From Joostella atrarenae (GTDB lineage: Bacteria > Bacteroidota > Bacteroidia > Flavobacteriales > Flavobacteriaceae), in assembly GCF_021764745.1 (NCBI RefSeq), contig NZ_JAETXX010000015.1:1-64000 (forward strand): a DNA stretch of 64,000 nucleotides. Reading direction: 5' to 3'. The translations under genes were made by a program, and so were the position numbers. Within the stretch, counting starts at the first letter, position 1; each line of letters starts with the position of its first letter. The notes under the pieces are model-generated. The model was not told where the DNA came from. It did no database searches and saw only the letters and a program-made list of their open reading frames with translations. Of this stretch, positions 13,710-28,419 are shown piece by piece.

Positions 13710-15005
13710 CTACTGAAGTGCTCTCCGCATTGCAGCAGCTTTAACAAGACACTCTTCATATTCTTTTTCTGGTTTCGACTTTGCCGTAATGGCACTTCCT
13801 GCGGAAAAAGAAACATATTTCTTTTCACTATTAAAACAGATACTTCTAATAATTACATTAAAATCAAAATCTCCATTCGGACTAAAATAACCTACAGCAC
13901 CACTATATACACCGCGCTTAGTTTCTTCTAAATCTTCAATGATTTTCATTGCTGAAAGTTTTGGAGCACCAGTCATACTTCCCATAGGAAAAGCGGCTTT
14001 AATTATATCTACAGGACTTGTTGTTGGTAACACTTCTGCTTTTATCGTAGAGATCATCTGATGAACTTGCATAAAAGTATATACTTTACAAAGTTCTTCT
14101 ACCTTTACACTGCCTTTTACAGCAACTTTAGATAGGTCATTACGCACCAAATCTACAATCATAACATTCTCGGAGCGTTCTTTAGTATCGTTCTCCAACT
14201 CTTTTATCAATAGAGCATCTTCTTCTTTATCTTCTGCTCTTTTTGCAGTCCCTTTAATTGGTTGTGATATAATTTGAGTTCCTTCCTTTCGAATATATCT
14301 TTCTGGAGAAGCTGATAAAACATATTTATTTTGATGTTTTAGAAAAGTTGCAAATGGAGGTTTGGAGATTTCATTTAAATTCTGAAAAGTTTTTACAGGA
14401 TCTATTGTAGTATTTTCAGCATAAAACTCTTGACAAAAATTAGCTTCATAAATATCTCCACGGTGAATATGAGTCAGCATTGCATTTACCTTTTCCAAAT
14501 AGGCTTGCTTCTCTATTCTATGTTGAATCTGAATATCTTTCTTTCCATAATTACTTTTATCTTCAGCAATAAATGAAGATATTTCCTGAAAATCGCTCTC
14601 AATTTCGTCATCAATCATTCCTAAATAATGGAATTCCAAAACTCCTTCCTTTATGAATATTAATCGTTTTGGCTGAAAGAAAAACAAATCTGGAAATTCT
14701 AATCCGTCGTAATTTTTAGAAGATAGTTGTTCTACATCATTTTTTAGATCGTAAGTAAGGTATCCGAAGATCCAATCTTTAGTAACCGACTGATATTCTT
14801 TAAGATTTTCGAAAGCATCATAATAATCGGTCTTTATAGAAGTAAAGGCTTCCGCAGCTAAAACTGCATCATAACTACCATGGGATTGTTTGTAAAAGTT
14901 GCTATCCAGCCAAATTACTTCCTCAAATGAAGAGGACCAAGCGAGAAGATTACTTTTAAACAGTTCAATATCTGTTATATTAAATTGTTTAATAGTTCTA
15001 TTCAT
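13710..15005 (-). CDS. pabB: Aminodeoxychorismate synthase component I (PabB)
   Basis: 431 residues with the chorismate-binding domain in the C-terminal two thirds. The decisive motif is Pro-Ile-Lys-Gly-Thr at 249-253. Lys251 is the nucleophile found in PabB, whereas anthranilate synthase (TrpE) has Ala there. The enzyme makes 4-amino-4-deoxychorismate from chorismate and ammonia for folate synthesis. No glutamine amidotransferase (PabA) lies beside it, so that subunit must be encoded elsewhere. It is transcribed divergently from the arginine/proline cluster with only about 115 nt between it and the Arg leader ORF; a TAAATTTG -7-like element is present on the minus strand near 15036-15043. 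Confidence 0.9.
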
Positions 15006-15122
15006 ACCAAAAAAACGAGTTTCTTATTAATGTTACAAATTTAACAAACTATAAGCTTTTTAAGCTAATTATTATTCATAATATTGTACTATAATTCTAA
15101 GAAAAGAACGAATACTTGCGAA

Positions 15123-15239
15123 ATGCAAAAAGTAATTGAAAAAATACAAACCATTATTAGAGAATTGTCCTTAAGGGCAACTCCTACTTATGTAATGGTT
15201 CCTGTACGTCACGTTCGCTTTCCTCGTCGCCGCCCGTAA
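15123..15239 (+). CDS. Putative Arg-rich leader peptide of the arginine/proline cluster
   Basis: A 38-codon ORF in front of the arginine genes. The peptide starts Met-Gln-Lys-Val-Ile-Glu-Lys and ends Pro-Val-Arg-His-Val-Arg-Phe-Pro-Arg-Arg-Arg-Pro-stop, so five of its last ten residues are Arg. Those five Arg are read from CGT/CGC, while the two upstream Arg use AGA/AGG. The CGT/CGC codons look rarer in neighbouring genes, but I did not count them. The ATG follows an A-rich stretch typical of flavobacterial starts. Its position, size and Arg run match the logic of an attenuation leader, where ribosome stalling at Arg codons senses charged tRNA-Arg. Expression is unproven; it could be a conserved small protein of other function. 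Confidence 0.6.
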   Translation: MQKVIEKIQTIIRELSLRATPTYVMVPVRHVRFPRRRP

Positions 15240-15278
15240 GGGTGTAACGATATTATGGAGTTAGGTGCGTCCAACTCC
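15178..15278 (+). promoter_or_regulatory. Mutually exclusive RNA stems at the Arg leader (attenuator-like)
   Basis: Three structures can be drawn. First, CGCCC (15231-15235) pairs with GGGTG (15240-15244) around a GTAA tetraloop that holds the leader stop codon. Second, GGAGTT-A-GG (15257-15265) pairs with CCAACTCC (15271-15278), an 8-bp stem with one bulged A. Third, the identical CAACTCC at 15178-15184, inside the leader ORF, can pair with the same GGAGTT instead. A further long-range option pairs TTAAGGGC (15171-15178) with GCCCGTAA (15232/3-15239), seven of eight positions. No U-tract follows the last hairpin, so simple intrinsic termination is not shown; control of translation or Rho access is possible. 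Confidence 0.45.
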
Positions 15279-15332
15279 CCTCTTAAAAAACAAAACCATT
15301 TCCAATTTTATTAATTTTAATTCAGTAATTGA

Positions 15333-15956
15333 ATGCAAATACTTATTGCAAACGATACACACATACCATACGCAGAACAGATCTGTGATACTATTGAAGA
15401 ATCTGCAAAACAACGCGGAACGGGTATTGCTAAAAGAACTCCTGAGTATATAACTACCAAAATACAAAACGGTAATGCTGTTATCGCTTTGGATGGTAAT
15501 AGGTTTGCTGGATTTTGCTACATTGAAACATGGGGCCATGGAAAATATGTAGCCAATTCTGGACTTATTGTACATCCTGATTTTAGAGGTCAAGGTTTGG
15601 CTACTAAAATTAAAAATAAGGTTTTCGAACATAGTAGAACCAAATTTCCAGATGCCAAAATTTTCGGTATTACTACAGGCTTGGCGGTAATGAAAATCAA
15701 CTACGATTTAGGATATGAACCTGTAACATTTTCAGAATTAACAGACGATCCTAGCTTTTGGAACGGATGTAAAACATGTAAAAACTTTGATATTCTAACT
15801 AGAAATGAAGGGAAAATGTGTTTATGTACTGGAATGTTGTATGATCCTGTTGAAAAAGAACAGAAAAAGCATAAGCATAAATACGACTCTAAAGTATTCA
15901 ATAGATTAAAAAAAATTAAACAATCTCTATTCCTAAAGAAAGAGAAACAGAAATAA
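15333..15956 (+). CDS. GNAT acyltransferase, candidate N-acylglutamate synthase
   Basis: 207 residues. The GNAT fold shows the acyl-CoA pyrophosphate-binding loop Arg-Gly-Gln-Gly-Leu-Ala (85-90) preceded by Val-His-Pro-Asp-Phe. The C-terminal part has four Cys as CxxC (146, 149) and CxC (163, 165), which look like a metal site, followed by a very basic tail. It is the first conventional gene of the arginine cluster, about 100 nt upstream of argG. No argA or argJ occurs in the window. I recall that a GNAT protein in the arginine cluster of Bacteroides thetaiotaomicron was assigned genetically as the acylglutamate synthase; by position and features this is its likely counterpart, catalysing step one of arginine synthesis. 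Confidence 0.7.
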   Translation: MQILIANDTHIPYAEQICDTIEESAKQRGTGIAKRTPEYITTKIQNGNAVIALDGNRFAGFCYIETWGHGKYVANSGLIVHPDFRGQGLATKIKNKVFEHSRTKFPDAKIFGITTGLAVMKINYDLGYEPVTFSELTDDPSFWNGCKTCKNFDILTRNEGKMCLCTGMLYDPVEKEQKKHKHKYDSKVFNRLKKIKQSLFLKKEKQK

Positions 15957-16064: not shown

Positions 16065-17246
16065 ATGAAAAAATTAGTTTTAGCATACAGCGGAGGTTTA
16101 GATACTTCTTATTGCGCAAAGCATTTATCTGAAAACGGTTATGAAGTACACGCTGTAAGTGTAAACACAGGAGGTTTCTCTAAAGAGGAAATAAAAAATA
16201 TTGAAGAGAAAGCCCTGAAATTGGGTGCTACTAGCTACACTTCTTTAGATGCTGTACAGACATTTTATGATAAAGTAGTAAAATATCTTATCTACGGTAA
16301 TGTCCTTAAAAATAATACATATCCACTTTCTGTAAGTGCAGAGAGGATTGTACAAGCTATTGAGATTGTAAATTTTGCTAAAGAAAACAATGCTCAGTAT
16401 ATAGCTCACGGAAGTACAGGTGCAGGAAACGACCAAGTACGTTTCGATATGATTTTTCAAATATTAGCTCCAGAGATTGAAATTATCACTCCTATTAGAG
16501 ATAATAAGCTTTCTAGACAAGAGGAAATCGACTTCTTAAAATCTAAAGGAGTAGATATGGAATGGGAGAAAGCTAAATATTCTATTAATAAAGGACTTTG
16601 GGGAACTAGTGTTGGTGGAGACGAGACACTTACCTCTCACCTATCACTTCCAAATGAAGCATACCCTAGTCAATTAGAAAACATGGGGAGTCAGAAAGTA
16701 AAATTAACTTTTACAAAAGGGGAGTTAACTGCTATCGACGGAAAGGAAGATAAAACCATCAATCTAATAGAAAAGCTTGATAAAATAGCTTCTGCTTTTG
16801 CTATCGGAAGAGATATTCACGTTGGAGACACTATTATAGGTATTAAAGGAAGAGTTGGTTTTGAGGCCGCTGCTCCGATGGTAATTATAAAAGCACACCA
16901 TACGTTAGAAAAACACGTGCTAACAAAATGGCAACAACAACAAAAAGACTATTTGGCAAATTGGTATGGAATGCTACTTCATGAAGGAAACTATTTGGAT
17001 GAAGTAATGAGAAATACAGAAGCTTTTTTAACTGATGCTCAGAAAAATGTAACTGGAGATGTTTGGGTAACTTTATTCCCATATAGATTTTTTGTGGATG
17101 GTATTAAATCAGAACACGATTTAATGAATGCTAAATTTGGTAGCTACGGAGAAATGAATGAAGGCTGGACAGCAGAAGAAGCTAAAGGATTTATTAAAAT
17201 CAATGCAAACGCTGCAAAAATACATCAAGCAGTAAATAAAAAATAG
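16065..17246 (+). CDS. argG: Argininosuccinate synthase
   Basis: 393 residues, typical length. The N-terminal ATP-pyrophosphatase motif Ser-Gly-Gly-Leu-Asp-Thr-Ser lies at 9-15, and the citrulline/aspartate-binding Gly-Ser-Thr-Gly-Ala-Gly-Asn-Asp-Gln-Val-Arg-Phe motif is near 116-127. It condenses citrulline with aspartate to argininosuccinate in the cytoplasm. It follows the GNAT gene and heads the run argG-argC-proC-argD-proA-proB. The 108-nt gap before it contains the interleaved inverted repeats at 16008-16049, a possible control point. Confidence 0.96.
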   Translation: MKKLVLAYSGGLDTSYCAKHLSENGYEVHAVSVNTGGFSKEEIKNIEEKALKLGATSYTSLDAVQTFYDKVVKYLIYGNVLKNNTYPLSVSAERIVQAIEIVNFAKENNAQYIAHGSTGAGNDQVRFDMIFQILAPEIEIITPIRDNKLSRQEEIDFLKSKGVDMEWEKAKYSINKGLWGTSVGGDETLTSHLSLPNEAYPSQLENMGSQKVKLTFTKGELTAIDGKEDKTINLIEKLDKIASAFAIGRDIHVGDTIIGIKGRVGFEAAAPMVIIKAHHTLEKHVLTKWQQQQKDYLANWYGMLLHEGNYLDEVMRNTEAFLTDAQKNVTGDVWVTLFPYRFFVDGIKSEHDLMNAKFGSYGEMNEGWTAEEAKGFIKINANAAKIHQAVNKK

Positions 17247-17335
17247 TTTAGACATATAACACTGGATTGTTTCATTAAGAAATCTAATTACTAAACGATC
17301 CAATCGTTAGATTATTCAGAAGAAAAAAATAAAAA

Positions 17336-18310
17336 ATGATTAAAGCAGGAATTATAGGTGGTTCGGGATATACTGGAGGCGAACTGATAAGAATTTTAAT
17401 TAACCATCCGCAAGCAGAGATAGACTTTGTATATAGCACCACGCGTGCTGGGAAACCAGTTACAGATGCTCATGAAGATCTTCTTGGTGCTACAGATTTA
17501 AAATTCACAGGAACCATTAACCCTAATGTTGATGTGCTTTTTTTATGTCTTGGTCACGGTAATTCTAAAGCTTTTTTAGATCAGCATACATTTTCAGATC
17601 ACACAAGAGTTATAGACTTAAGTAATGATTTCAGATTAAATGCTGATGCTACTTATAATGGTAGAGAATTTGTATATGGCTTGCCAGAATTACAAAAAGA
17701 AGCCATTAAAGCGGCGAAAAATATTGCAAATCCAGGATGCTTTGCTACTGCAATCCAACTGGCATTACTGCCATTAGCTAAAAACAACCTATTAACAGAG
17801 GATATTCATATCAATGCTGTTACTGGAAGTACTGGAGCAGGAGTTTCTCCTTCTTCTACTTCTCATTTTAGCTGGAGAAACAACAATGTATCTTGGTACA
17901 AACCCTTTACACACCAACACTTAGGAGAGATCAATCAAAGTATTGTGAGTCTTCAGAACAACCAACCAAATATTTTTATGCTCCCACAAAGAGGGAATTT
18001 CACAAAGGGGATTTTTGTAACATCTTACATGAAATTTGAAAATAGTTTGGAAGAAACTTGGAATTTATACGAGGATTTTTATGTTATAGACCCGTTCACA
18101 CATTTATCAAAGAAAGAAGTTCACTTAAAACAAGTTATTAATACTAACAATTGTTTTATCCATCTTCATAAGCACGAAGACGTGCTGCTCATCACTAGTG
18201 TCATAGATAATTTAATAAAAGGCGCCTCTGGACAGGCAGTACAAAACATGAACTTACTTTTCGGTTTAAATGAAAGTGACGGACTAAATTTAAAAGGAAG
18301 TTATTTCTAA
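17336..18310 (+). CDS. argC: N-acyl-gamma-glutamyl-phosphate reductase
   Basis: 324 residues. The NAD(P)-binding loop Gly-Gly-Ser-Gly-Tyr-Thr-Gly (8-14) and the active-site Asn-Pro-Gly-Cys-Phe-Ala-Thr (Cys135) identify ArgC. It reduces N-acyl-glutamyl-5-phosphate to the semialdehyde, the third step of arginine synthesis. In this cluster the acyl group may be succinyl instead of acetyl (see the transcarbamylase at 23466), which ArgC itself does not reveal. It lies 19 nt before proC and is clearly cotranscribed with it. Confidence 0.95.
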   Translation: MIKAGIIGGSGYTGGELIRILINHPQAEIDFVYSTTRAGKPVTDAHEDLLGATDLKFTGTINPNVDVLFLCLGHGNSKAFLDQHTFSDHTRVIDLSNDFRLNADATYNGREFVYGLPELQKEAIKAAKNIANPGCFATAIQLALLPLAKNNLLTEDIHINAVTGSTGAGVSPSSTSHFSWRNNNVSWYKPFTHQHLGEINQSIVSLQNNQPNIFMLPQRGNFTKGIFVTSYMKFENSLEETWNLYEDFYVIDPFTHLSKKEVHLKQVINTNNCFIHLHKHEDVLLITSVIDNLIKGASGQAVQNMNLLFGLNESDGLNLKGSYF

Positions 18311-18329
18311 AAAACTAAAAACAAAACAA

Positions 18330-19118
18330 ATGAAAGTTACCGTTATTGGATCAGGAAATCTAGGAAAATCAATCATTACCGGAATTGCATCCAGCGATTT
18401 ATTTGATTCAAAGAACATCTTAGTAGCAGACAAATCAGATGAGAATCTGGAAATTATTAAAGAACAAGCCGGCGTATCTGTTACGTCAGACAATATTAAA
18501 GCAGTTAAAGAGTCCAAATGGGTAATCCTTTGTATTCAACCGCGAATTTTAAAAATTGTACTTAACGAAATTAAAGATCATCTTACAGACGATCAGATTT
18601 TAATTTCGACAGTTACTGGAGTTTCTATTAGTGAGATTAACGAAATTGTACCAAACAATAAAGTTATTAGAGCTATGCCAAACACAGCTGCTGTAAAACT
18701 ACAGTCAATGTCTTTTATCTGTGCTGATGATATCGAGCATGATGATGTACATTTTGTAGAAAAGATGTTTGGTACCATTGGGAAAACAATGATTATTGAA
18801 GAGCGTTTAATGCAAGCAGCAACAGTTCTTGGAGCTAGTAGTACTGCTTTCTTTTTACGTTTCTTAAGAGCACTTACACAAGGAGGTGTGCAAATGGGAT
18901 TCCATCCTCACGAAGCACAAGAAATCTCTGCTCAAGTAGCAATTGGAGCTGCTGCTCTAATTGAAGATGGAACACATGCCGAAGTAGAAGTAGATAATGT
19001 TACTACTCCTATGGGTTGTACTATTGAAGGTTTAAATGCCATGGAGCACAACGGATTGAGTTCTGCAGTGATAAAAGGTATTATGGCTTCATACAAACGA
19101 ATTAGTGATATTAAATAA
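18330..19118 (+). CDS. proC: Pyrroline-5-carboxylate reductase
   Basis: 262 residues, normal length. An N-terminal Rossmann motif Gly-Ser-Gly-Asn-Leu-Gly (7-12) binds NAD(P)H, and Arg-Ala-Met-Pro-Asn-Thr near residue 113 plus the C-terminal helical dimerisation domain (about 160-262) are characteristic. It reduces 1-pyrroline-5-carboxylate to proline, the last proline step. Its place between argC and argD shows that proline and arginine genes are interleaved in one unit here, as in many Bacteroidetes. Confidence 0.95.
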   Translation: MKVTVIGSGNLGKSIITGIASSDLFDSKNILVADKSDENLEIIKEQAGVSVTSDNIKAVKESKWVILCIQPRILKIVLNEIKDHLTDDQILISTVTGVSISEINEIVPNNKVIRAMPNTAAVKLQSMSFICADDIEHDDVHFVEKMFGTIGKTMIIEERLMQAATVLGASSTAFFLRFLRALTQGGVQMGFHPHEAQEISAQVAIGAAALIEDGTHAEVEVDNVTTPMGCTIEGLNAMEHNGLSSAVIKGIMASYKRISDIK

Positions 19119-19215
19119 CTTAAAAATTGAAGTATATAACAAAATTTGTAACATTACTGATTAACAACGTTATATATCTTCAATTAAGCAAACTTTATAA
19201 TTTTTAGCACAATAA

Positions 19216-20358
19216 ATGAAACTGTTTGATGTTTATCCTTTGTACAACGTTACTCCTGAAAAGGGAAAAGACGTTTATGTTTACGATGAAAGCGGTCAAG
19301 AATATTTAGATCTCTATGGAGGTCATGCCGTTATTTCTATTGGTCATTCGCATCCTACATATGTAGAGCGCATTACCGAGCAAGTAAACAAACTTGGTTT
19401 CTACTCCAATGCCATTCAAAATCCACTTCAAGTGGAATTGGCAGAAAGGTTAGGAAGGCTTTCTAATTGTGAGGAATACAACCTATTTCTTTGCAATTCT
19501 GGAGCAGAAGCCAATGAGAATGCATTAAAGTTAGCGTCTTTTCATACGAATAAGTCGCGAGTAATAGCTTTTAAAAATGGATTCCACGGAAGAACATCTG
19601 CAGCAGTTGCAGCAACCGATAATGGAGCTATAAACGCTCCTATTAATAATCAGCACAGCGTCACAACATTCCTTCCTTTTAACCAACTTCACTCTTTAGA
19701 TTATGAATTAGCGTTCGGTGACGTATGTGCGGTTATTATTGAACCTATACAAGGTGTTGGAGGCTTAGACGAGCCAACAACAGAATTTCTCCAAGGAGCA
19801 GCTGCATTATGTAAAAAGCACAATGCTGTATTGATTTTAGATGAAATTCAATCTGGTTATGTTAGAAGTGGAAAATTCTTTGCATTTCAGCATCATGACA
19901 TAGAACCCGACATAGTGACAGTTGCTAAAGGAATGGGTAATGGTTTTCCTATTGGAGGCGTATTAATCCACCCACGATTTAAAGCTAAACATGGAATGCT
20001 GGGCACCACCTTTGGAGGGAATCATTTGGCATGTACTGCTGCCCTTGCCGTTCTGGAGGTTATGGAAGATGAAAAACTCATTGATAACGTGAACGAAATT
20101 TCTGATTATTTTATTGAAAAATCAAAGGAAATCAAGAGTTTACAAAAACTTAAAGGTAGAGGATTGATGCTTGGTATGGAGTTTGAACAAAATGTATCAG
20201 AGATAAGAAAAGAGCTTATTTACGAGAAAAAAATATTTACAGGCGGCTCGTCAAATAAGAACTTATTAAGAATTTTACCGCCATTAACGATTAAGAAACA
20301 TCATATAGACACATTTTTAGATTCTTTGTCTGATGTTTTGGAAAATCACAACTTGTAA
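19216..20358 (+). CDS. argD: N-acylornithine aminotransferase
   Basis: 380 residues, class III PLP aminotransferase. Asn-Ser-Gly-Ala-Glu-Ala-Asn-Glu lies at 94-101, and the Schiff-base Lys238 is in Val-Ala-Lys-Gly-Met-Gly-Asn-Gly. It converts the N-acyl-glutamate semialdehyde to N-acylornithine. Enzymes of this type often accept both acetyl and succinyl substrates, so it fits either branch. Its TAA stop shares one base with the proA ATG at 20358, indicating translational coupling. Confidence 0.93.
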   Translation: MKLFDVYPLYNVTPEKGKDVYVYDESGQEYLDLYGGHAVISIGHSHPTYVERITEQVNKLGFYSNAIQNPLQVELAERLGRLSNCEEYNLFLCNSGAEANENALKLASFHTNKSRVIAFKNGFHGRTSAAVAATDNGAINAPINNQHSVTTFLPFNQLHSLDYELAFGDVCAVIIEPIQGVGGLDEPTTEFLQGAAALCKKHNAVLILDEIQSGYVRSGKFFAFQHHDIEPDIVTVAKGMGNGFPIGGVLIHPRFKAKHGMLGTTFGGNHLACTAALAVLEVMEDEKLIDNVNEISDYFIEKSKEIKSLQKLKGRGLMLGMEFEQNVSEIRKELIYEKKIFTGGSSNKNLLRILPPLTIKKHHIDTFLDSLSDVLENHNL

Positions 20359-21554
20359 TGAATAAAATACTAACAATTTCCGAAAGAAATAATGTATTAT
20401 TAACCATGGCTGATCTTATCCGTGAGGAAAAAGATGCACTCATAAAAGAAAACAAGAAAGACCTAGACGGTTATTCTGGCGATGATCTCGCTATGGAAGA
20501 CCGACTAAAAGTTGATGATGCTAAAATCGATGGGATGATAGCGTCATTAAAAGAATTAGCTTCACAAGAGGATCCGTTAGGAAAAGAACGTTTCCACTTT
20601 AAGCATGATAACGGAATGGATGTTTATAATAAAACAGCTCCTTTCGGAACTATCATGATTATATACGAATCTAGACCAGATGTTACAGTAGAAGCAGCAG
20701 GAATTGCTTTTAAATCTGGTAATAAGATTTTATTAAAAGGAGGTAAAGAGTCTTTAAACTCTAACCTACTAATTGTTGATTTATGGCATAAAGCCATGAA
20801 AAAACATGGAGTTTCTACTGTTTGGGTTGAATATTTACAATTTAACCGTCAAGAAACTCAAGCTTTCTTAGAAAAGCCAACACAACAAATAGACCTTATT
20901 GTTCCTAGAGGTGGTGAGCGTCTTATTCAATTTGTAAAAGAAAATGCAAATTGTCCAGTTATTGTAAGTGGTAGAGGAAACAACTTTGTATATGTCCAAA
21001 AAGATGCAGATCTAGATTTAGCACTTAAAGTTATTATCAATGCTAAAACAGCTAAGATTTCTGCTTGTAATGCATTAGATAAAGTACTTATTGACACAAA
21101 TCTTCCAAATTATAAAGAGTTTGCAAAAAGACTTCTTGACAAATTGGCGGAGCATAAAGTAGCTGTTCATGTAGATAAAGAACTAAGTGATTTAGATAAT
21201 GTTACTGTTATATCAGACGATAATATTTGGTATGAAGAGTTCTTAGACTATAAGATAGTGATTGGTGTTATTGATTCTAATGAAGAAGCAATTGCTAAGA
21301 TAAATAAATACTCTGGAGGTCATTCTGCGTCTATTATAACAAAAGATAAAGAAGTAGCAGAAGAATTTATGGCAACCGTAGATACAGCTGCTGTATATCA
21401 TAATGCGTCTACAAGATTTACAGATGGATCGCAATTAGGATTAGGTGGTGAGTTGGCAATTAGTACAGACAAATTACACCAGCGTGGACCTATTGGCCTT
21501 GAGCACTTGGTTACCAATAAGTGGTATATCCATGGAGATGGTCAAATTAGATAG
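20358..21554 (+). CDS. proA: Glutamate-5-semialdehyde dehydrogenase (gamma-glutamyl phosphate reductase)
   Basis: 398 residues, somewhat short of E. coli ProA (417) but complete. The catalytic Cys237 lies in Ile-Ser-Ala-Cys-Asn-Ala-Leu, and Tyr-Glu-Ser-Arg-Pro-Asp-Val-Thr-Val-Glu near 103-112 is a family signature. It reduces glutamyl-5-phosphate, made by ProB, to the semialdehyde that cyclises to P5C. It overlaps argD by one base and is followed after 120 nt by the two proB copies. The 21599-21646 stretch in that gap contains two small hairpins. Confidence 0.94.
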   Translation: MNKILTISERNNVLLTMADLIREEKDALIKENKKDLDGYSGDDLAMEDRLKVDDAKIDGMIASLKELASQEDPLGKERFHFKHDNGMDVYNKTAPFGTIMIIYESRPDVTVEAAGIAFKSGNKILLKGGKESLNSNLLIVDLWHKAMKKHGVSTVWVEYLQFNRQETQAFLEKPTQQIDLIVPRGGERLIQFVKENANCPVIVSGRGNNFVYVQKDADLDLALKVIINAKTAKISACNALDKVLIDTNLPNYKEFAKRLLDKLAEHKVAVHVDKELSDLDNVTVISDDNIWYEEFLDYKIVIGVIDSNEEAIAKINKYSGGHSASIITKDKEVAEEFMATVDTAAVYHNASTRFTDGSQLGLGGELAISTDKLHQRGPIGLEHLVTNKWYIHGDGQIR

Positions 21555-21598
21555 TTTTACGCTATTAAAGAAGTTTAACAATAATAAATAATAATAAC

Positions 21599-21646
21599 TC
21601 GATAATTAATCGAACTGTAAAAAAGCTCAATTGGTGAGCATTTACA
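21599..21646 (+). promoter_or_regulatory. Two hairpins between proA and the first proB
   Basis: A TCGAT/ATCGA stem around AATTA lies at about 21599-21613. Then TGTAAA (21616-21621) pairs with TTTACA (21641-21646) enclosing GCTCA (21625-21629)/TGAGC (21635-21639). No U-tract follows, so these look like intercistronic RNA structure rather than a terminator. Confidence 0.4.
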
Positions 21647-21674
21647 ACTTTAACATAATACTAAAAACAAAAAA

Positions 21675-22457
21675 ATGAGTAAGCCCGAAAAAAAGAAGAA
21701 AAGAATTCTTTTAAAAATAGGATCTAATACGCTTACAAAAGAATCTGACCAGATATCTAGAGGTAAATTAGAAGATATTGGTCGCCAAATCGCAGCACTT
21801 CAAGATGATTACGAATTTGTAATCGTAAGTTCTGGTGCCAAAGTAGTTGCTAAGCAATTTGTAAACTTAGAAAGTACTTATAGCGAAGATATTAACGTGA
21901 AACAAGCGCTTACCTCTATTGGTCAGCCTCACTTAATACGTATATTTCAAGAAAGTTTTAGAGAGTTAGGATTATTGGCTTCTCAATGTCTACTTTCTTA
22001 TTCTGATTTTGAAAAAGATGTTTCAAAAGAAAACATTGTAAATACCATAAATATTTTGGTTGAAAATGGATACATTCCAATTATCAACGAAAATGATACG
22101 GTTGCTACTGATGAGATTCAATTTGGTGATAATGATAAATTAGCTGCTTTAACAGCTGCTTTATTAAAAGTTGACTTATTGATAATCGCAACAAATACAA
22201 ATGGTATTTATACGAAGGAGTCATTTGCAGAAGGATCGCCAGAAACTATTGAAGAAGTAGATAACTTCTCCGACCTTAAAAAAGAGGTTATGGATGACAC
22301 AAAATCATCTCATGGTACTGGAGGTATGAGTTCTAAAGTAATTGCTTTAGAGATTGCAAACAAAGCAAATATCGAAACATGGATAGTAAACGGATTGGAA
22401 GATAATTTCATTCTAAATACTATCAACGATAATACTCCTTATACTAAAATTGAATGA
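21675..22457 (+). CDS. proB: Glutamate 5-kinase-like protein, first tandem copy (diverged)
   Basis: 260 residues: an amino-acid-kinase domain only, without the C-terminal PUA domain of E. coli ProB. Lys-Ile-Gly-Ser-Asn-Thr-Leu-Thr near residue 14 and Gly-Thr-Gly-Gly-Met near 214 are kept. It is about two-thirds identical by eye to the next gene. The segment after the glutamate-binding Ser-Ser-Gly-Ala reads Lys-Val-Val-Ala here instead of the usual Ile-Ala-Ala-(Gly/Ala), and Asn-Thr-Asn-Gly replaces Asn-Thr-Asp-Gly. It probably phosphorylates glutamate for proline synthesis, but this copy may have changed activity or feedback. A terminator-like hairpin separates it from the second copy. Confidence 0.85.
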   Translation: MSKPEKKKKRILLKIGSNTLTKESDQISRGKLEDIGRQIAALQDDYEFVIVSSGAKVVAKQFVNLESTYSEDINVKQALTSIGQPHLIRIFQESFRELGLLASQCLLSYSDFEKDVSKENIVNTINILVENGYIPIINENDTVATDEIQFGDNDKLAALTAALLKVDLLIIATNTNGIYTKESFAEGSPETIEEVDNFSDLKKEVMDDTKSSHGTGGMSSKVIALEIANKANIETWIVNGLEDNFILNTINDNTPYTKIE

Positions 22458-22488
22458 TTTTTTAATTAAAATATAAGTATAGATAAAT

Positions 22489-22556
22489 AAGGCTCGAAAA
22501 GTAAATAATGGCTCCGTATTTTTAATATGAAAGCATTGCTTTTCGAGCCTTTTTTA
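22489..22556 (+). terminator. Terminator-like hairpin between the two proB copies
   Basis: A 13-bp perfect stem (22489-22501 with 22539-22551) encloses an unusually long loop of about 37 nt and is followed by a T-rich tail (TTTTTTAT). The next gene starts only about 20 nt later, so it may cause partial termination inside the operon or act as an RNA processing site. Confidence 0.65.
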
Positions 22557-22575
22557 TGTCATTTGTCCAACTAAA

Positions 22576-23352
22576 ATGATGAAAACAACCAAAAAAAGAA
22601 TTGTTCTTAAAATAGGTTCCAATACCCTAACCAGAGAAACAAACCACATTTCTCGCGGTAAAATTGAAGATATTGCTAGACAAATAGCAGTACTTAAAAA
22701 TAAATATGAGTTTGTAATTGTAAGCTCTGGTGCTATAGCCGCAGCCAAACAGTTTGTAAACTTAGAAAGTAACGGCAAAGAGATTAATGTAAAACAAGCG
22801 CTTGCATCAATCGGGCAGTTACATCTTATGAGAATCTATCAAGAGAATTTTAGAGAATTAGGCCTCTTAATTTCACAATGCCTCCTCTCCTATTCTGATT
22901 TTAAAAGTAAAACATCAAAAGAAAATATTGTAAATACCATAAATATCTTGCTTCAAAATGATTACATCCCAATAATCAATGAAAATGATACGGTTGCTAC
23001 TGATGAAATTAAGTTTGGTGACAATGATAAATTAGCCGCTTTAACAGCAGAGCTCATACAGGCAGATCTTCTTATTATTGCCACAAATACTGATGGAATT
23101 TACACTAAAGAATCAATGACTCACAATTCTCCAGAAACTATTAAGGAAGTTATTGGTTTTGAAAGCCTAATTAAAGAAATTGCAGATGGAAAGTCATCTC
23201 ATGGAACTGGAGGCATGAAATCTAAAGTAGATGCTGTAGAAATTGCCTCTGCCGCAGGCATAGAAACATGGATTGTAAATGGACTTAATGAGAATTTTAT
23301 TACTAATGCAGTTGCAGATGAGATCCCATTTACCAAGATAAAACCTCGTTAA
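22576..23352 (+). CDS. proB: Glutamate 5-kinase, second tandem copy (canonical motifs)
   Basis: 258 residues, amino-acid-kinase domain without PUA. It keeps the conventional Ser-Ser-Gly-Ala-Ile-Ala-Ala after the nucleotide lobe and Asn-Thr-Asp-Gly-Ile-Tyr-Thr, plus Ser-Ser-His-Gly-Thr-Gly-Gly-Met. This makes it the safer candidate for the working glutamate 5-kinase, first step of proline synthesis. Two Met codons are adjacent at the start (ATGATG); either may be used. Both copies lack the PUA domain, so neither was split from a longer gene; the pair arose by tandem duplication and then diverged. Confidence 0.9.
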   Translation: MMKTTKKRIVLKIGSNTLTRETNHISRGKIEDIARQIAVLKNKYEFVIVSSGAIAAAKQFVNLESNGKEINVKQALASIGQLHLMRIYQENFRELGLLISQCLLSYSDFKSKTSKENIVNTINILLQNDYIPIINENDTVATDEIKFGDNDKLAALTAELIQADLLIIATNTDGIYTKESMTHNSPETIKEVIGFESLIKEIADGKSSHGTGGMKSKVDAVEIASAAGIETWIVNGLNENFITNAVADEIPFTKIKPR

Positions 23353-23407
23353 TAATTAAAAATAACTTTTATATAATCGATAAAAGTATAGATATAAAAC
23401 ACATAAC

Positions 23408-23448
23408 TTCTAAAGGCGACATATGGTAAATCCAATAGGCTTTTAGAA
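23408..23448 (+). promoter_or_regulatory. Intercistronic hairpin before argF'
   Basis: A 10-bp stem with one G-T pair (23408-23417 with 23439-23448) and a 21-nt loop, ending 17 nt before the next ATG. No T-run follows. It has the same long-loop style as the hairpin between the proB genes. Confidence 0.4.
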
Positions 23449-23465
23449 AATTAAAAATTAGTAAA

Positions 23466-24404
23466 ATGAAACAATTCCTAGATTTAGAAGACATCGATAA
23501 TGTAGATGAACTTATTAAAAATGCTATCACTTTAAAATCAAATCCTTTTTCTCATAAAGAGTTAGGGAAAAATAAGAGTATAGGACTTTTATTCTTTAAT
23601 TCTAGTTTAAGAACACGTTTAAGTACTCAAAAGGCGGCACAAAACCTTGGAATGGAGGTTATGATTCTAAATCTTAATTCTGATGGTTGGGCTTTAGAAT
23701 TTGAAGATGGAAGCATAATGAATGCTGGTACTGCAGAGCACATTAAAGAAGCTGCAGCAGTTATTTCTCAATATGTAGACATCATTGCATTAAGAGCTTT
23801 CCCTTCTTTAACTGATAAGAAAAAGGATGAAGAAGAACTCATTATAAAGAGCTTTAAAGAGCATGCATCAGTTCCTGTAGTAAATATGGAAAGCGCAACA
23901 GCTCACCCGCTTCAAGCGCTTACAGATGCTATTACAATTTCAGAATTTAAACAAAAAGAACGTCCAAAAGTTGTTTTAACATGGGCTCCACACCCAAGAG
24001 CATTGCCTCATGCTGTTCCAAATTCATTTGCTAAAATGATGCAGATGATAGATGTAGATTTTGTTATTACTCATCCAGAAGGCTATGAATTAAATCCTAA
24101 AATCACTGGAGAAACTCCTATTATTTACGACCAGGAAGAAGCTTTAAAAGATGCCGATTTTGTGTATGCAAAAAACTGGAGTAGCTATAATGACTACGGA
24201 CAAATAAAAAGCACTGATGAGAGTTGGATGGTTACGCTTGATAAAATAAAAGCTGCGAAATTCATGCATTGCCTTCCTGTAAGACGAAATGTAATCGTTG
24301 CTGATGAGGTTCTAGACAGTGAGCAATCGTTGGTAATCGAACAAGCAAACAATAGAACTTATGCAGCACAAGCTGTATTAAAAGATATTCTGGAAGGGAA
24401 ATAG
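23466..24404 (+). CDS. argF': N-succinylornithine (or N-acetylornithine) carbamoyltransferase
   Basis: 312 residues, strongly like the Bacteroides fragilis ArgF' transcarbamylase. The carbamoyl-phosphate loop Ser-Ser-Leu-Arg-Thr-Arg is at 46-51 and His-Cys-Leu-Pro-Val-Arg-Arg is in the C-terminal half. The residue that sets acyl specificity is known: Pro90 in the B. fragilis succinyl enzyme, Glu92 in the Xanthomonas acetyl enzyme. Aligned by Ile-Met-x-x-x-x-(P/E/A)-Glu-His, this protein has Ala90. Replacing that Glu with Ala or Pro is reported to switch the acetyl enzyme to succinylornithine, so a succinyl pathway is inferred. It makes N-acylcitrulline. Confidence 0.88.
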   Translation: MKQFLDLEDIDNVDELIKNAITLKSNPFSHKELGKNKSIGLLFFNSSLRTRLSTQKAAQNLGMEVMILNLNSDGWALEFEDGSIMNAGTAEHIKEAAAVISQYVDIIALRAFPSLTDKKKDEEELIIKSFKEHASVPVVNMESATAHPLQALTDAITISEFKQKERPKVVLTWAPHPRALPHAVPNSFAKMMQMIDVDFVITHPEGYELNPKITGETPIIYDQEEALKDADFVYAKNWSSYNDYGQIKSTDESWMVTLDKIKAAKFMHCLPVRRNVIVADEVLDSEQSLVIEQANNRTYAAQAVLKDILEGK

Positions 24405-24474
24405 TTGTTGGTTACCAGTTACTTACTCATAACTAAACTTTACAACATTCATTATTAAAATTTTATAAACGCAT

Positions 24475-25248
24475 ATGAAAGTATCTATTATAAAAATTGG
24501 TGGGAATCTTATTGAAGACGAAACTGTTCTTGATCAAGTTCTTACAAATTTCGCTGCCATAGAAGGTGCTAAAATATTAGTTCACGGAGGTGGAAAAATG
24601 GCTACGCAATTATCAGAGAAATTGGGTGTAAAAACTCAAATGGTCGATGGTAGAAGGATTACCGATAGAGAAACACTAAATATCATTACAATGGTTTACG
24701 GCGGACTCGTAAATAAAACTATTGTTGCAAAATTACAGGCTAATAATTGTAATGCGCTAGGGCTTTCTGGAGCAGATTTAAATACTATAAAATCAATAAA
24801 AAGACCTATAAAAACTCACGATTTTGGGTTTGTGGGTGATGTAACTGAAGTAAACTCAGAGATGTTTTCTCTTTTACTGAATAATAATATCACTCCTGTT
24901 TGCTGTGCTATTTCTCATGATAAAAACGGACAATTATTTAACACCAACGCAGATACAATTGCTTCAGAAATAGCTGTTTCTTTAGCAAACGATTTTGAAG
25001 TAGAATTGTATTATTGCTTTGAGAAAAAGGGTGTCTTAAGAAGTATTGAAGACGAAAATTCAGTAATAACAGATATTAATACAGAGATATATCAAGCGCT
25101 TGTAAAAGAACACATTATTGCAGACGGAATGCTTCCAAAGCTTCATAATTGCTTTAATGCGTTAGAAAAAAAGGTGTCAAAAGTATTTATAGGTAGTGTA
25201 GCAATGCTCGCTGATGATAATCAACTAAAAACAACAATTACTCTTTAA
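24475..25248 (+). CDS. argB: N-acylglutamate kinase
   Basis: 257 residues, amino-acid-kinase fold. Lys-Ile-Gly-Gly-Asn at the N-terminus and Leu-Val-His-Gly-Gly-Gly-Lys-Met near 35-42 bind ATP, and Asn-Ala-Asp-Thr-Ile-Ala near residue 160 is the family signature. It phosphorylates N-acetyl- or N-succinylglutamate, the second arginine step. It lacks the N-terminal helix associated with arginine-sensitive hexameric ArgB enzymes, which suggests weak or no feedback inhibition by arginine; that would leave control to transcription or the leader. Cotranscribed with argF'. Confidence 0.92.
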   Translation: MKVSIIKIGGNLIEDETVLDQVLTNFAAIEGAKILVHGGGKMATQLSEKLGVKTQMVDGRRITDRETLNIITMVYGGLVNKTIVAKLQANNCNALGLSGADLNTIKSIKRPIKTHDFGFVGDVTEVNSEMFSLLLNNNITPVCCAISHDKNGQLFNTNADTIASEIAVSLANDFEVELYYCFEKKGVLRSIEDENSVITDINTEIYQALVKEHIIADGMLPKLHNCFNALEKKVSKVFIGSVAMLADDNQLKTTITL

Positions 25249-25274
25249 AGTTATATTATTTAATTCAGGGGAGG

Positions 25275-25310
25275 CAATAAGAAGATTAATTTTCAATCTT
25301 CAACTTATTG
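25275..25310 (+). promoter_or_regulatory. Intercistronic hairpin between argB and argE
   Basis: CAATAAG-AAGATT (25275-25287) pairs with AATCTT-CAA-CTTATTG (25295-25310), a 13-bp stem with a 3-nt bulge and 7-nt loop. No T-run follows at once. It resembles the other long intercistronic stems of this cluster. Confidence 0.45.
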
Positions 25311-25366
25311 ACTTCTTCATTTAATTAAATATAAACAACATATTTTCAACATTAGAACTTAACATA

Positions 25367-26428
25367 ATGACTATTCAACAACTTACACAAGAGGCAATAG
25401 AACTTTTAAAATCACTAATTAGTACACAATCTTTTTCTTCTGAAGAGGAAAAAACAGCTGCACTGATTGAAAATTGGTTTCAGAAATATAACATCCCATT
25501 CAAAAGGGAGAACAATAATATATGGGCTTTTAATGAAGATTATACAGAAGGAAAGCCTTTGCTACTCCTTAATTCGCATCATGATACCGTAAAACCAAAT
25601 ACTGCATATACCAAAGATCCTTTTAATCCGCATATTGAAGACGGAAAATTATTTGGTCTTGGAAGTAATGACGCTGGAGGTTGCTTAGTTTCTTTAATTG
25701 CTACTTTTACGTATTTCTATCAGAAGAAAAACCTTAATTATAACATAGTTATCGTTGCTTCTGCTGAAGAAGAAAGCTCAGGTCCAAAAGGACTCAATTC
25801 TGTATTAAAAAGCCTGCCAGAAATCGAAGTTGCTATTGTTGGTGAGCCTACATTAATGAATCTTGCCATTGCTGAGAAAGGTTTGGTTGTTTTTGATGGT
25901 TCTGTAAAAGGAACTCCAAGTCATGCCGCACATCCAAATGACGACAATGCGATATATAAAACTATCAACGTTTTACAGTGGTTTAAAGATTATAAATTCG
26001 AGAAAGTATCTGAAGTTTTAGGCCCTGTAAAAATGACGGTCACTCAGATAGAAGCTGGAAATCAACACAATGTAGTTCCTGCAGAAGTCAAATTAGTAAT
26101 TGATGTACGCGTAAACGACAAGTATAGCAATCAAGAAGTATACGATACCTTAAAAGAATTAGCTCCTTGTGAAGTTACACCAAGATCATTACGTTTAAAT
26201 TCTTCAGCTATTCCAAAAGACCACGCTCTTGTAAAGGCTGGTATTGAATTAGGAAGGGAAACATACGGATCTCCTACCCTTTCAGATCAAGCAACGTTAA
26301 CCTGTGCTTCTTTAAAATTAGGTCCTGGAGATTCTACGCGATCACATTCTGCAAACGAATTTATTTATGTGAATGAGATTGAAGAAGGTGTGGATTTATA
26401 TATTAAGTTATTAGAGAAAGTGCTATAA
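25367..26428 (+). CDS. argE: M20-family N-acylornithine/N-acylcitrulline deacylase
   Basis: 353 residues of the M20 zinc-peptidase family. Metal ligands His71-His-Asp-Thr and the catalytic Glu cluster at 134-136 (Ala-Glu-Glu-Glu-Ser) are visible; a dimerisation domain sits in the middle (about 165-270). In ArgF'-type pathways deacylation follows carbamoylation, so the substrate should be N-succinylcitrulline or N-acetylcitrulline, releasing citrulline for ArgG. Its position between argB and argH supports this. Confidence 0.88.
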   Translation: MTIQQLTQEAIELLKSLISTQSFSSEEEKTAALIENWFQKYNIPFKRENNNIWAFNEDYTEGKPLLLLNSHHDTVKPNTAYTKDPFNPHIEDGKLFGLGSNDAGGCLVSLIATFTYFYQKKNLNYNIVIVASAEEESSGPKGLNSVLKSLPEIEVAIVGEPTLMNLAIAEKGLVVFDGSVKGTPSHAAHPNDDNAIYKTINVLQWFKDYKFEKVSEVLGPVKMTVTQIEAGNQHNVVPAEVKLVIDVRVNDKYSNQEVYDTLKELAPCEVTPRSLRLNSSAIPKDHALVKAGIELGRETYGSPTLSDQATLTCASLKLGPGDSTRSHSANEFIYVNEIEEGVDLYIKLLEKVL

Positions 26429-26483
26429 GCTGGTAATGGATTTTAGGTGCTAGAATTACATTTTAAACTTGAAACAATAAAGC

Positions 26484-27017
26484 ATGTCTATACGAATTAG
26501 GGACTCATTAAACTACCATACATACATTGAACATTCATTGAGTATGAAGTTTGCTGCAGATGAAAATGCAAAGTTATTTATTGAAAAAGTTAAAAATTGG
26601 AATCAAGAAAATAAAAGTAAAGTTAGAGGGCTATTCAGATCCTCAATGCTCTTGTATGCTGTAAGTATTGAATTAATAATTAAAGCTCGCGGTTTATATG
26701 CAGAAAAGGAAAATATAAAGAATGATTCTATCAAAAATTTCTATGATTTTTTAAAAATATGGAAAGGAAAAAGTGATGGTCACAATTATTTTAAAATAAT
26801 CGAACATTATAATATTAAAATCAATCCTGAAGAAAAAGAATTATTGGAAAATTTTCTATCTTATACAAGTTGGGCGGGTAGATTTCCATATCCAAAAAGA
26901 GAAGATGAGGTATTAAATATGGAGATAAATGGAAGAAAACATGGTAAGATTTCGGAAAAATATCAATCGAAGGTTAATAATTTTATAGACCAACAAATTG
27001 AATTTATGAAATTATAA
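26484..27017 (+). CDS. Unknown helical protein, possibly HEPN-like, inserted in the arg cluster
   Basis: 177 residues, cytoplasmic, highly charged and helical. Met-Leu-Leu-Tyr-Ala-Val-Ser-Ile-Glu-Leu-Ile-Ile-Lys-Ala-Arg near residue 55, then Gly-His-Asn-Tyr-Phe and Trp-Ala-Gly-Arg-Phe-Pro-Tyr-Pro near 130, resemble stand-alone HEPN-like domain proteins, which often sit in defence or toxin loci. No RxxxxH active site is obvious, so toxin activity is not claimed. It lies 55 nt after argE and 120 nt before argH, where a biosynthetic gene would be expected. The start could also be the internal ATG at 26544. Confidence 0.6.
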   Translation: MSIRIRDSLNYHTYIEHSLSMKFAADENAKLFIEKVKNWNQENKSKVRGLFRSSMLLYAVSIELIIKARGLYAEKENIKNDSIKNFYDFLKIWKGKSDGHNYFKIIEHYNIKINPEEKELLENFLSYTSWAGRFPYPKREDEVLNMEINGRKHGKISEKYQSKVNNFIDQQIEFMKL

Positions 27018-27138
27018 ATAAGGAGCAAAACATAAATCATTGCCACTAATATAAAATAATAATAAAAGTTATCTTTGTCTTAATAACCATTCTAGGCAAT
27101 ACGTAACTAGATAATAACACTCATAATACTAGAGAATA

Positions 27139-28419
27139 ATGAAACTTTGGGAAAAAGGTTTTTCAACTGATAAAAAAATAGACATCTTCACTGTAGGTTC
27201 AGATAGAGAATTAGATTTAGTAATTGCAAAATATGATATTTTAGCCTCTATTGCGCATGCTAAAATGCTTCATAAAATTGATCTTATCACTAAAGAAGAG
27301 GCTCAAGATTTAGTGACAGAACTAGAAAATATTGGAGAAACCATAAAAAATGGTTCTTTTACTATTGAAGATGATTTTGAAGATGCGCATTCTAAAATTG
27401 AATACCTTTTAACCGACAAGCTGGGAGACACTGGAAAAAGAATCCATACAGCTCGTTCTAGAAACGATCAAGTTCTTGTTGCAGTAAACCTTTATTTAAA
27501 AGAAGAGCTTTCTGAAATAAAGAATAGCACTAGAGAACTTTTTGAAGTATTATTAGGATTAGCAGACACACACAAAGAAACATTACTCCCTGGATATACA
27601 CATTTACAGATTGCAATGCCTTCTTCTTTTGGACTATGGTTTTCTGCATATGCTGAAAGTCTAATTGACGATTTATATTTTATTGACGCTGCACATAAAA
27701 TTGTAGATCAGAATCCATTAGGAAGCGCTGCTGGTTATGGTAGCTCCTTCCCTATTGATCGTGATTACACAACAAAAGAGCTTGCTTTCGAAACACTAAA
27801 ATATAATGTGGTAGCCGCACAAATGAGTAGAGGGAAATCTGAGAAAAGTACTGCTTTTGGATTAAGTAGTATTGCTTCAACACTCTCCAAAATGTCCATG
27901 GATATATGCTTGTATATGAGTCAGAATTTTGACTTCATTACTTTCCCAGATGAACTAACAACAGGGTCTAGTATTATGCCACATAAAAAGAACCCTGATG
28001 TTTTTGAACTTATTCGTGGGAAATGTAATAAAATCCAAGCAGTTCCAAACCAACTAGCTATGTTAACTACAAATTTACCTAGTGGATATCATAGAGATCT
28101 TCAGCTTACAAAAGAAATAATTGTTCCTGCTATACAAGAGTTAAAATCATGCTTAGAGATGCTTACTTTCTCTATCAAGAATATAATTGTAAAAGAAGGT
28201 GTAATTGATGATAAAAAATATGATTATCTCTTTAGTGTAGATACTTTGAACGATTTAGTTTTAAGTGGAATGCCTTTTAGAGACGCATATAAAAAAATGG
28301 GAGAAGAAATTCAACGAGGAGAGTTCACTCCTAAAAGAAATATCTCTCATAGCCATAAAGGGAGTTTAGGAAATCTATGCTTAGATGAAATTAAAAGTAA
28401 AATGGATCTACTTTTTTAG
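27139..28419 (+). CDS. argH: Argininosuccinate lyase
   Basis: 426 residues, slightly short of E. coli ArgH (457) but with all motifs. These include Thr-Ala-Arg-Ser-Arg-Asn-Asp-Gln near 110-117 and the fumarase-superfamily signature Gly-Ser-Ser-Ile-Met-Pro-His-Lys-Lys-Asn-Pro near 275-285. It splits argininosuccinate to arginine and fumarate, the final step. It closes the arginine/proline cluster; the next gene (outer-membrane protein, 50 nt on) may be read through. Confidence 0.95.
   Translation: MKLWEKGFSTDKKIDIFTVGSDRELDLVIAKYDILASIAHAKMLHKIDLITKEEAQDLVTELENIGETIKNGSFTIEDDFEDAHSKIEYLLTDKLGDTGKRIHTARSRNDQVLVAVNLYLKEELSEIKNSTRELFEVLLGLADTHKETLLPGYTHLQIAMPSSFGLWFSAYAESLIDDLYFIDAAHKIVDQNPLGSAAGYGSSFPIDRDYTTKELAFETLKYNVVAAQMSRGKSEKSTAFGLSSIASTLSKMSMDICLYMSQNFDFITFPDELTTGSSIMPHKKNPDVFELIRGKCNKIQAVPNQLAMLTTNLPSGYHRDLQLTKEIIVPAIQELKSCLEMLTFSIKNIIVKEGVIDDKKYDYLFSVDTLNDLVLSGMPFRDAYKKMGEEIQRGEFTPKRNISHSHKGSLGNLCLDEIKSKMDLLF

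Follow-up and report, generated by a model that had tools for sequence, protein, structure and literature searches.

A candidate arginine leader peptide upstream of the arginine/proline cluster of Joostella atrarenae and related loci in the Bacteroidia

How is arginine synthesis controlled in Bacteroidia that do not carry the repressor ArgR? Among the matches listed from the open-access literature, we found neither a description of such control nor a paper on an arg leader in Bacteroidota. The question is raised by a locus of Joostella atrarenae (Flavobacteriaceae), analysed here within a window of 64,000 nucleotides (contig NZ_JAETXX010000015.1, positions 1 to 64,000, forward strand). An earlier note, made from the letters of this DNA, had proposed that an arginine leader peptide stands ahead of a whole arginine/proline cluster. 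Comparison with relatives strongly supports this proposal, through the leader ORF, its CGY codons, its hairpins, its place before GNAT and argG, the promoter boxes found upstream of the ORF in relatives, and the rarity of ArgR. The features of the locus are collected in Table 1.

Table 1. Features of the leader region and of the genes that follow it (positions in the window).
Feature	Position	Strand	Description and basis
Probable -7 promoter box TAATATTG	15079-15086	+	one mismatch to TAnnTTTG; direct reading
Leader peptide ORF	15123-15239	+	38 codons, MQKVIEKIQTIIRELSLRATPTYVMVPVRHVRFPRRRP then stop, ends R-R-R-P-stop; direct reading
HP0	15165-15180	+	TTGTCC-TTAA-GGGCAA, inside the ORF; fold
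Arg codons of the control region	CGT 15207, CGC 15216, CGT 15225, CGC 15228, CGC 15231	+	direct reading
HP1	15231-15244	+	CGCCC-GTAA-GGGTG; the 5′ arm includes the last Arg and Pro codons, and the loop the stop codon
HP2	15257-15278	+	GGAGTT-A-GG-TGCGT-CC-AACTCC; outer stem, bulged A, 2-bp inner stem, 5-nt loop
HP2 loop	15266-15270	+	TGCGT; mostly UGNGU across the family, and UNNGY in some of the class
GNAT gene, first downstream gene	15333-15956	+	PF00583, 34.2 bits
Presumed controlled cluster	16065-28419	+	ORF list and family matches

The leader ORF ends 93 nt before the start of the GNAT gene, which heads the arginine/proline cluster. Behind it come argG, argC, proC, argD, proA, two copies of proB, an argF-like gene, argB, an argE-like gene, an ORF of 177 aa and an argH-like gene, presumably transcribed together. 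The leader region is present in a single copy in its own genome. The closest named relative of the GNAT protein, among the matches listed, is that of Robertkochia solimangrovi (89% identical). The two proB genes (glutamate 5-kinase) are adjacent paralogues of 260 and 258 aa (21675-22457 and 22576-23352), both above the TIGR01027 cut-off, and the 177-aa ORF (26484-27017), located between the argE-like and argH-like genes, was matched by no Pfam or NCBIfam family at E 0.001. On the other side, a divergent chorismate-binding gene, pabB-like by family match (13710-15005, minus strand), shares the intergenic region of the leader; by eye, TTTGTTAAATTTG on its strand resembles that gene's own promoter.

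Direct reading confirmed the ORF of the earlier note: 38 codons, with 5 Arg among the last ten, all CGT or CGC. As in trp and his attenuators, it is a short ORF with codons for the end product, placed before the operon. In a sample of 128 unique Flavobacteriaceae genomes, its frame (frame 0) was open across the last 72 nt in 126, compared to 28 and 40 for the other two frames, and the leaders contained on average 4.41 Arg in frame 0, versus 0.91 and 0.72 in the others. An Arg-rich ORF was detected in 127 of the 128 loci, and in 10 of the 128 on the reverse strand, used as a control. A second Arg-rich ORF was found further upstream in 39 leaders, by an approximate rule, and we refer to these as the two-ORF class, the other 89 forming the single-ORF class. 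The end of the peptide is alike in both classes: R in 93-95%, R in 97%, P in 93-97% and stop in 82-85%, with the final two Arg codons encoding Arg in 93-97% of the 128 leaders.

Codon choice in the leaders departs from that of the window genes counted. CGC and CGT make up 497 of the 584 Arg codons of the leaders (85%), and AGA 38, whereas the share of CGY in two sets of window genes was 23% and 42%. The first set, the arg/pro genes (94 Arg codons), had 57 AGA, 17 CGT and 5 CGC; the second, four other genes (52 Arg codons), had 17 CGT, 13 AGA and 5 CGC. The possibility that CGT and CGC are both rare codons holds only in part: over these 146 Arg codons CGC was rare (10/146), but CGT was not (34/146). 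In four leaders of equal length from the same genus, the ratio of nonsynonymous to synonymous changes was 0.14, and 0.19 once the shared Arg codons were removed. Low as these ratios are, and small as the sample is, they argue for translation of the leader ORF.

To what extent does the leader follow the cluster? GNAT was present in 34 of 60 relatives. Thirty loci were examined for the HP2 core pattern, which occurred in 26, each of them from the family of the window; these are all 26 GNAT genomes of that family in this first set of relatives. A covariance model, R1, was built on these 26 loci; it gave them at least 50.7 bits, as expected for training loci, and at most 13.4 bits to anything else in the 30. 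In the window, the covariance-model match covers 15225-15295, with 79 bits. Over 199 genomes of the family, R1 had a match at E ≤ 1 in 160 and at E ≤ 1e-5 in 123. Downstream of 103 strong loci lying outside the first set (one of them, L038, from a genome already included), the first arg gene was GNAT in 101 cases and argG in 2, and none of the 11 family genomes without GNAT had a strong match. Among 19 weak matches (E 4e-5 to 0.02), taken from a longer weak list, none had a cluster gene downstream in the stretch covered. Named GNAT loci gave a strong match in 79 of 80, a set that overlaps the other genomes and is not independent of them; the exception, L212 of Confluentibacter sediminis, had a match of 15.5 bits in the expected position. 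Named strains with the leader include Robertkochia solimangrovi and Zobellia uliginosa. In one genus of the family, g146, the canonical HP2 core was absent in 8 of the 8 loci read, and locus L272 of this genus has a different leader, which ends in SRTNRPTTSPEVRML.

The start of transcription was approached through promoter boxes. In the part of PMC9723704 covered here, the -7 consensus TAnnTTTG is placed at -12 to -5. Exact TAnnTTTG boxes in the relatives accumulated at two distances upstream of HP1, 75-100 nt (27 boxes) and 200-225 nt (14 boxes), with 1 to 6 in each other bin; downstream of HP1 there were 3. An exact box was found in 38 of the 89 single-ORF leaders, 29 of which had a gap of 4-7 nt to the next ATG (7 nt in 19, 4 nt in 6). 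Among the 39 two-ORF leaders, 12 had an exact box followed by an Arg-rich ORF1, as the test required, the gap being 4 nt in 6 and 5 nt in 3. Such a spacing would place the start of many of these ORFs only a few bases from +1. In the window, only TAATATTG is present, and the 5′ part is longer.

The earlier note had also placed the stop codon in a hairpin with a GTAA tetraloop, which is what we find: HP1 is a 5-bp hairpin with GTAA as its loop. A hairpin spanning the stop position was present in 124 of the 128 relatives, compared to a mean of 7.1% (maximum 28.1%) at control positions, and its loop was GTAA in 81 of the 128. HP1 positions were paired in 78.8% of cases, versus 65.6% in shuffled alignments (maximum 75.3%), over 17 distinct rows. 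For HP0, further upstream in the ORF, pairing at a fixed register in the 39 two-ORF leaders was 73.3%, versus 57.2% when shuffled (maximum 65.4%); the hairpin is weaker overall, with a mean z of -0.99 over the 128 leaders.

HP2 pairs were formed in 97.2% of cases, versus 81.3 ± 1.0 for shuffles (maximum 84.5), over 62 distinct rows among 125 parsed, a contrast that is flattered by setting the 5′ arm at the best of five bulge lengths. Three of the 128 leaders, L026, L131 and L145, were not parsed by the HP2 pattern and are absent from the HP2 counts. Two-sided changes were seen in 7 of the 8 pairs, and the second inner pair changed from G-C to both A-U and U-A. The core GGTG-N-GTCC was present in 119 of the 125 parsed rows, N being A in 81, T in 29 and C in 9. 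Conservation in relatives extends to the ORF, the Arg run and the covarying stems, the three features by which the earlier note had suggested judging the leader. Other readings of the HP2 core were set aside. A generic genome motif was rejected, as AGGTGNGTCC occurs 6 times in the genome and the reversed control also 6 times; among the 3 of 6 contexts inspected, the expected stem was seen only at the arg copy. Pairing with the 16S 3′ end and an anticodon mimic in the loop were dismissed by eye, the core covarying as a stem and the third loop base being variable. A boxA-like motif after HP2 and docking of the HP1 loop into HP2 were considered by eye only.

HP2 was rejected as an intrinsic terminator on its tail. 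At least 5 T in 8 nt followed it in 15 of 123 rows, versus 44% of background stretches, and at least 6 T in 8 in 2 of 123, versus 22%, the background being taken 12-33 nt further on and two further rows being too short. The earlier claim that the leader has no U-tract therefore holds for HP2, where such tracts are rarer than background, and is ambiguous for HP1. A terminator scan of the window found none (0.2 in shuffles), with a loop limit of 8 that covers HP1, not HP2. More generally, the stem rules allow loops of 3-8 nt (3-10 for his and trp leaders under the strict rule) and are blind to the outer stem of HP2, so that zero terminators at HP2 by these rules carries no weight.

The leader was then compared with loci of the class outside the family. 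In Bacteroidia of other orders, an Arg-rich short ORF preceded GNAT in 21 of 26 loci (5 on the reverse strand; 16% in shuffles), and in 13 of 20 further loci (5 on the reverse strand). The total is 34 of 46, with 10 on the reverse strand; the 46 loci come from 49 GNAT genomes outside the order, and L371, from a genome with ArgR, is kept in the count though its Arg-rich ORF was judged a chance occurrence. Within the order, outside the family, an Arg-rich ORF was present in 9 of 23 loci (3 on the reverse strand), and it was absent in the loci of families f5 (0/8) and f16 (0/5). A hairpin with a UNNGY loop followed the leader in 16 of 44 cases outside the family, compared to 1.55 in mononucleotide shuffles (maximum 4), and the other 28 had none under the rule used; examples are TTTCCC-TACGC-GGGAAA (L359) and GTCTGGT-TCCGT-ACCAGAC (L288). 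For the narrower UA(C/U)GY loop, 11 of 44 leaders were positive (shuffles 0.05, maximum 1). Of nine other loop patterns, with counts of 0 to 6, only C..G[TC] (4/44) beat the shuffles (mean 0.93, maximum 3). These 44 leaders, from which the 8 f5 and 5 f16 loci had been left out, were searched for loops and for HP1 with laxer stems; with stricter stems, UNNGY hairpins were found in 11 of 30 leaders (shuffled 0.28, maximum 2). HP1 outside the family was present in 17 of 44 leaders, modestly above control (mean 18.5%, maximum 31.8%).

Some of the GNAT loci without Arg leader (L285-L287 and L289-L291 in f5, L282 and L283 in g146) have, by eye, AGATA/TATCT-like stretches upstream, which are perhaps operators of another regulator. 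In the 600-kb genomes of f16 (G230, G252 and others), the GNAT match is part of an open frame some 590-650 aa in length, suggestive of GNAT being fused to the next gene; in the f16 loci inspected, the short upstream ORF contains no Arg run.

An ArgR regulon supposes an argR gene in the genome, and in genome G000 the ArgR profile (PF01316) had no match. ArgR was detected in 1 of 147 genomes of the order (G202, 26.9 bits, or 27.3 with neighbours, for a cut-off of 27) and in 8 of 149 genomes of the class, 7 of them above cut-off, with a profile that detects ArgR in 9 of 14 control genomes. G202 carries the leader too (L134). Four genomes of the class sample have both GNAT and ArgR (G371, G410, G441 and G470, loci L383-L386), and in all four argR lies within about 1 kb upstream of GNAT. 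No UACGY or UAUGY core was seen in these four stretches, nor any credible leader. They contain three short Arg-rich ORFs: two fall inside the stretch occupied by the argR frame, and the third, in L386 between argR and GNAT, we took for chance.

We consider it rather probable that the locus encodes an arginine-responsive leader peptide for the arg/pro cluster, with occupancy of HP1 by the ribosome as the switch and HP2 as the output. There is good support for the sensor part, i.e. an operon preceded by Arg codons in a conserved frame. The whole is built, from sequence comparison, on the conservation of the ORF and the selection acting on it, the codon bias, the covariation of the hairpins, the genomic position and the rarity of ArgR; from these we infer stalling, the direction of control, switching at HP1 and recognition of HP2 in trans. 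Transcription would start just upstream, in many relatives probably a few bases from the ATG, so that the ribosome would trail RNA polymerase closely. With ample charged arginine tRNA, the final CGY codons would be read, and the ribosome would stop inside HP1 and leave, allowing HP1 to fold. When arginine is short, it would pause on the CGY codons of the HP1 5′ arm, HP1 would stay unfolded, and the arg genes would be expressed. No alternative pairing is necessary in such a scheme because the ribosome itself would cover the hairpin. Unlike in trp leaders, the control codons come at the very end of the ORF, within the 5′ arm of the hairpin that contains the stop codon, so that the simplest switch is occupancy and not the choice of one structure over another. 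HP2, whose loop and bulge are conserved and which has no U-tract, would most likely be the output element, read by a factor (a protein, RNA polymerase or an RNase), and the conservation of its loop over long distances speaks for recognition by such a putative factor. The output could lie in weak termination at HP1, in the reading of HP2 by a factor, or in control of translation or decay.

Several observations go against this explanation. A stalled and a terminating ribosome would be only a few codons apart, which makes the classical positional logic weak, and the amino-acid-level conservation of non-Arg codons, seen in one genus, is beyond the needs of codon sensing. To these are added the g146 loci without HP2 core, the f5 and f16 loci without ORF, the modest hairpins outside the family, and matches of HP1 to a loose terminator rule.

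These last matches lead to an alternative that we regard as unlikely, in which HP1 would be a weak intrinsic terminator by virtue of the T-rich stretch before HP2, a ribosome held up at the Arg codons would block it, and HP2 would have a separate role such as mRNA protection. The loose rule was satisfied at HP1 in 56 of 128 leaders (63 counting all places, 10.8 in shuffles), and at least 5 T in 8 nt followed HP1 in 76 of 128, versus 44% of background stretches. However, at least 6 T in 8 were found in 31 of 128 (24%), which is like the background (22%), and the T-rich part lies, by our reading, some 8-13 nt beyond the stem. The strict rule retained 3 of 128 leaders in all (0.8 in shuffles), two of them at HP1 (L080 and L131) and one elsewhere; the terminator scan found none in the window. 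HP1 may then be at most a weak terminator, and the conservation of HP2 is left unexplained by this scheme.

Sensing could also reside in the nascent peptide rather than in the codons. In the fungal arginine attenuator peptide and in TnaC, the nascent chain is the sensor, and abundant ligand makes the ribosome stall at the stop codon. By analogy, free arginine would be sensed by the leader peptide, with a stall at its stop codon under plenty, a hypothesis we find quite unlikely. R-R-P precedes the stop in most of the 128 leaders, and within one genus nonsynonymous changes are suppressed at non-Arg codons too (the ratio of 0.19 given above). Family-wide, conservation is mainly that of R-R-P, with more in the two-ORF class, where positions -3, -2 and -6 are often F (69%), P (54%) and R (59%), respectively; by eye, PVRP/PVRH-like stretches recur in distant families. 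But in the single-ORF class no residue exceeds 36% upstream of the last four sense codons, and several lineages have no terminal Pro or run past it (RRPLGV, FRRTFVRA). V (66%) and N (74%) are also common in the two-ORF class, and their conservation may follow from the pairing of HP0.

The earlier note had rather envisaged a competition, with two CAACTCC copies for one GGAGTT segment. The copies are present (15178-15184, overlapping the 3′ arm of HP0, and 15272-15278), and each can pair with GGAGTT (15257-15262), but in relatives the competition is at chance level. Of the 125 parsed leaders, 3.2% had in their ORF region a segment perfectly complementary to the HP2 5′ arm, versus 4.2% with species-swapped partners, and the mean best complementarity was 4.872, versus 4.869 ± 0.037, with 107 of 200 swaps reaching the observed value. 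Ensemble folding gave no conserved pair between ORF and HP2, the highest mean pair probability being 0.03. Competition between the ORF and the HP2 arm was rejected on this complementarity, and for pairings with HP2 we found no mutually exclusive antiterminator and terminator of the trp/his type. A classical trp-type attenuator with mutually exclusive structures is thus very improbable, even though the trp and his leaders of the same genomes look classical, since pairing is no better than in swapped controls and a U-tract after HP2 is rarer than background.

Returning to the ribosome-occupied leader, a broader picture can be drawn for arginine control in the Bacteroidia, which we put forward as possible rather than probable. 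An ancient leader with no classical terminator would be built from a near-leaderless upstream ORF that times the departure of the ribosome via its stop-codon hairpin, and from a UNNGY-pentaloop hairpin bound by a putative trans-acting factor; an operon-adjacent ArgR would replace the leader in some lineages. If a leader unmatched in Rfam is indeed spread across the class, and its last hairpin lacks both a U-tract and an exchangeable partner, the ribosome signal would have another route. The elements of the leader are short, which makes them easily testable.

How does this leader compare to known systems? The speF leader of Salmonella is also named orf34/SpeFL. In what PMC6386406 gives of it, control of the mRNA is likewise tied to the arginine level, but the target is ornithine decarboxylase, and the title reports alternative conformations of the mRNA, of which we found no sign in the arg leader. 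In Staphylococcus aureus, the Arg codons of the rbfL leader peptide sense arginine limitation, as would those of the arg leader; according to the portion of PMC13009471 covered, the stall there covers the ribosome binding site and represses translation of a biofilm regulator, the codons are AGA/AGG, and no arg genes are involved. The GUCCY-hairpin (Weinberg 2010; PMC2864571) was compared by name only, and here GUCC is mostly followed by A or G. Clues to leader-peptide attenuation before amino-acid operons are reported in Flavobacterium psychrophilum, where elements are named for pheA and hisG (PMC9723704); section 19 of that article names no arg leader, and its Table S7, outside this coverage, may list arg. 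In Bacteroides thetaiotaomicron, leader-like sORFs are mentioned, the word arginine having 0 occurrences in the main text of PMC7366714.

No credible Rfam match to the arg leader was obtained in the window or in the 40 loci searched, while the Bacteroid-trp leader RNA (RF01692) was matched in 12 of 21 genomes, 11 over cut-off, including that of the window. Like the arg leader, Bacteroid-trp precedes an amino-acid operon and has a leader peptide that contains control codons; it differs in that a long hairpin encloses its Trp codons, and the GC-rich stem that comes next leads into at least 4 T in the 12 inspected. The his leader of the same genomes is likewise a short ORF, with a His run, before hisG, and differs by a GC-rich stem running into T in 6 of the 7 inspected, the seventh being cut off. 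By eye, L342, upstream of hisG, has the His leader MTIYTSHHHHFHTCAQAR with a U-tract stem, and L347, upstream of ilvD, a Val/Ile-rich short ORF and then a U-tract stem. Among 12 his and 12 trp leaders, the loose terminator rule recognised 9 and 8, and the strict rule 4 and 4, so that the automatic contrast with the arg leaders is weaker than the contrast by eye. Within one genome, the trp and his leaders look ordinary, in contrast to the arg leader.
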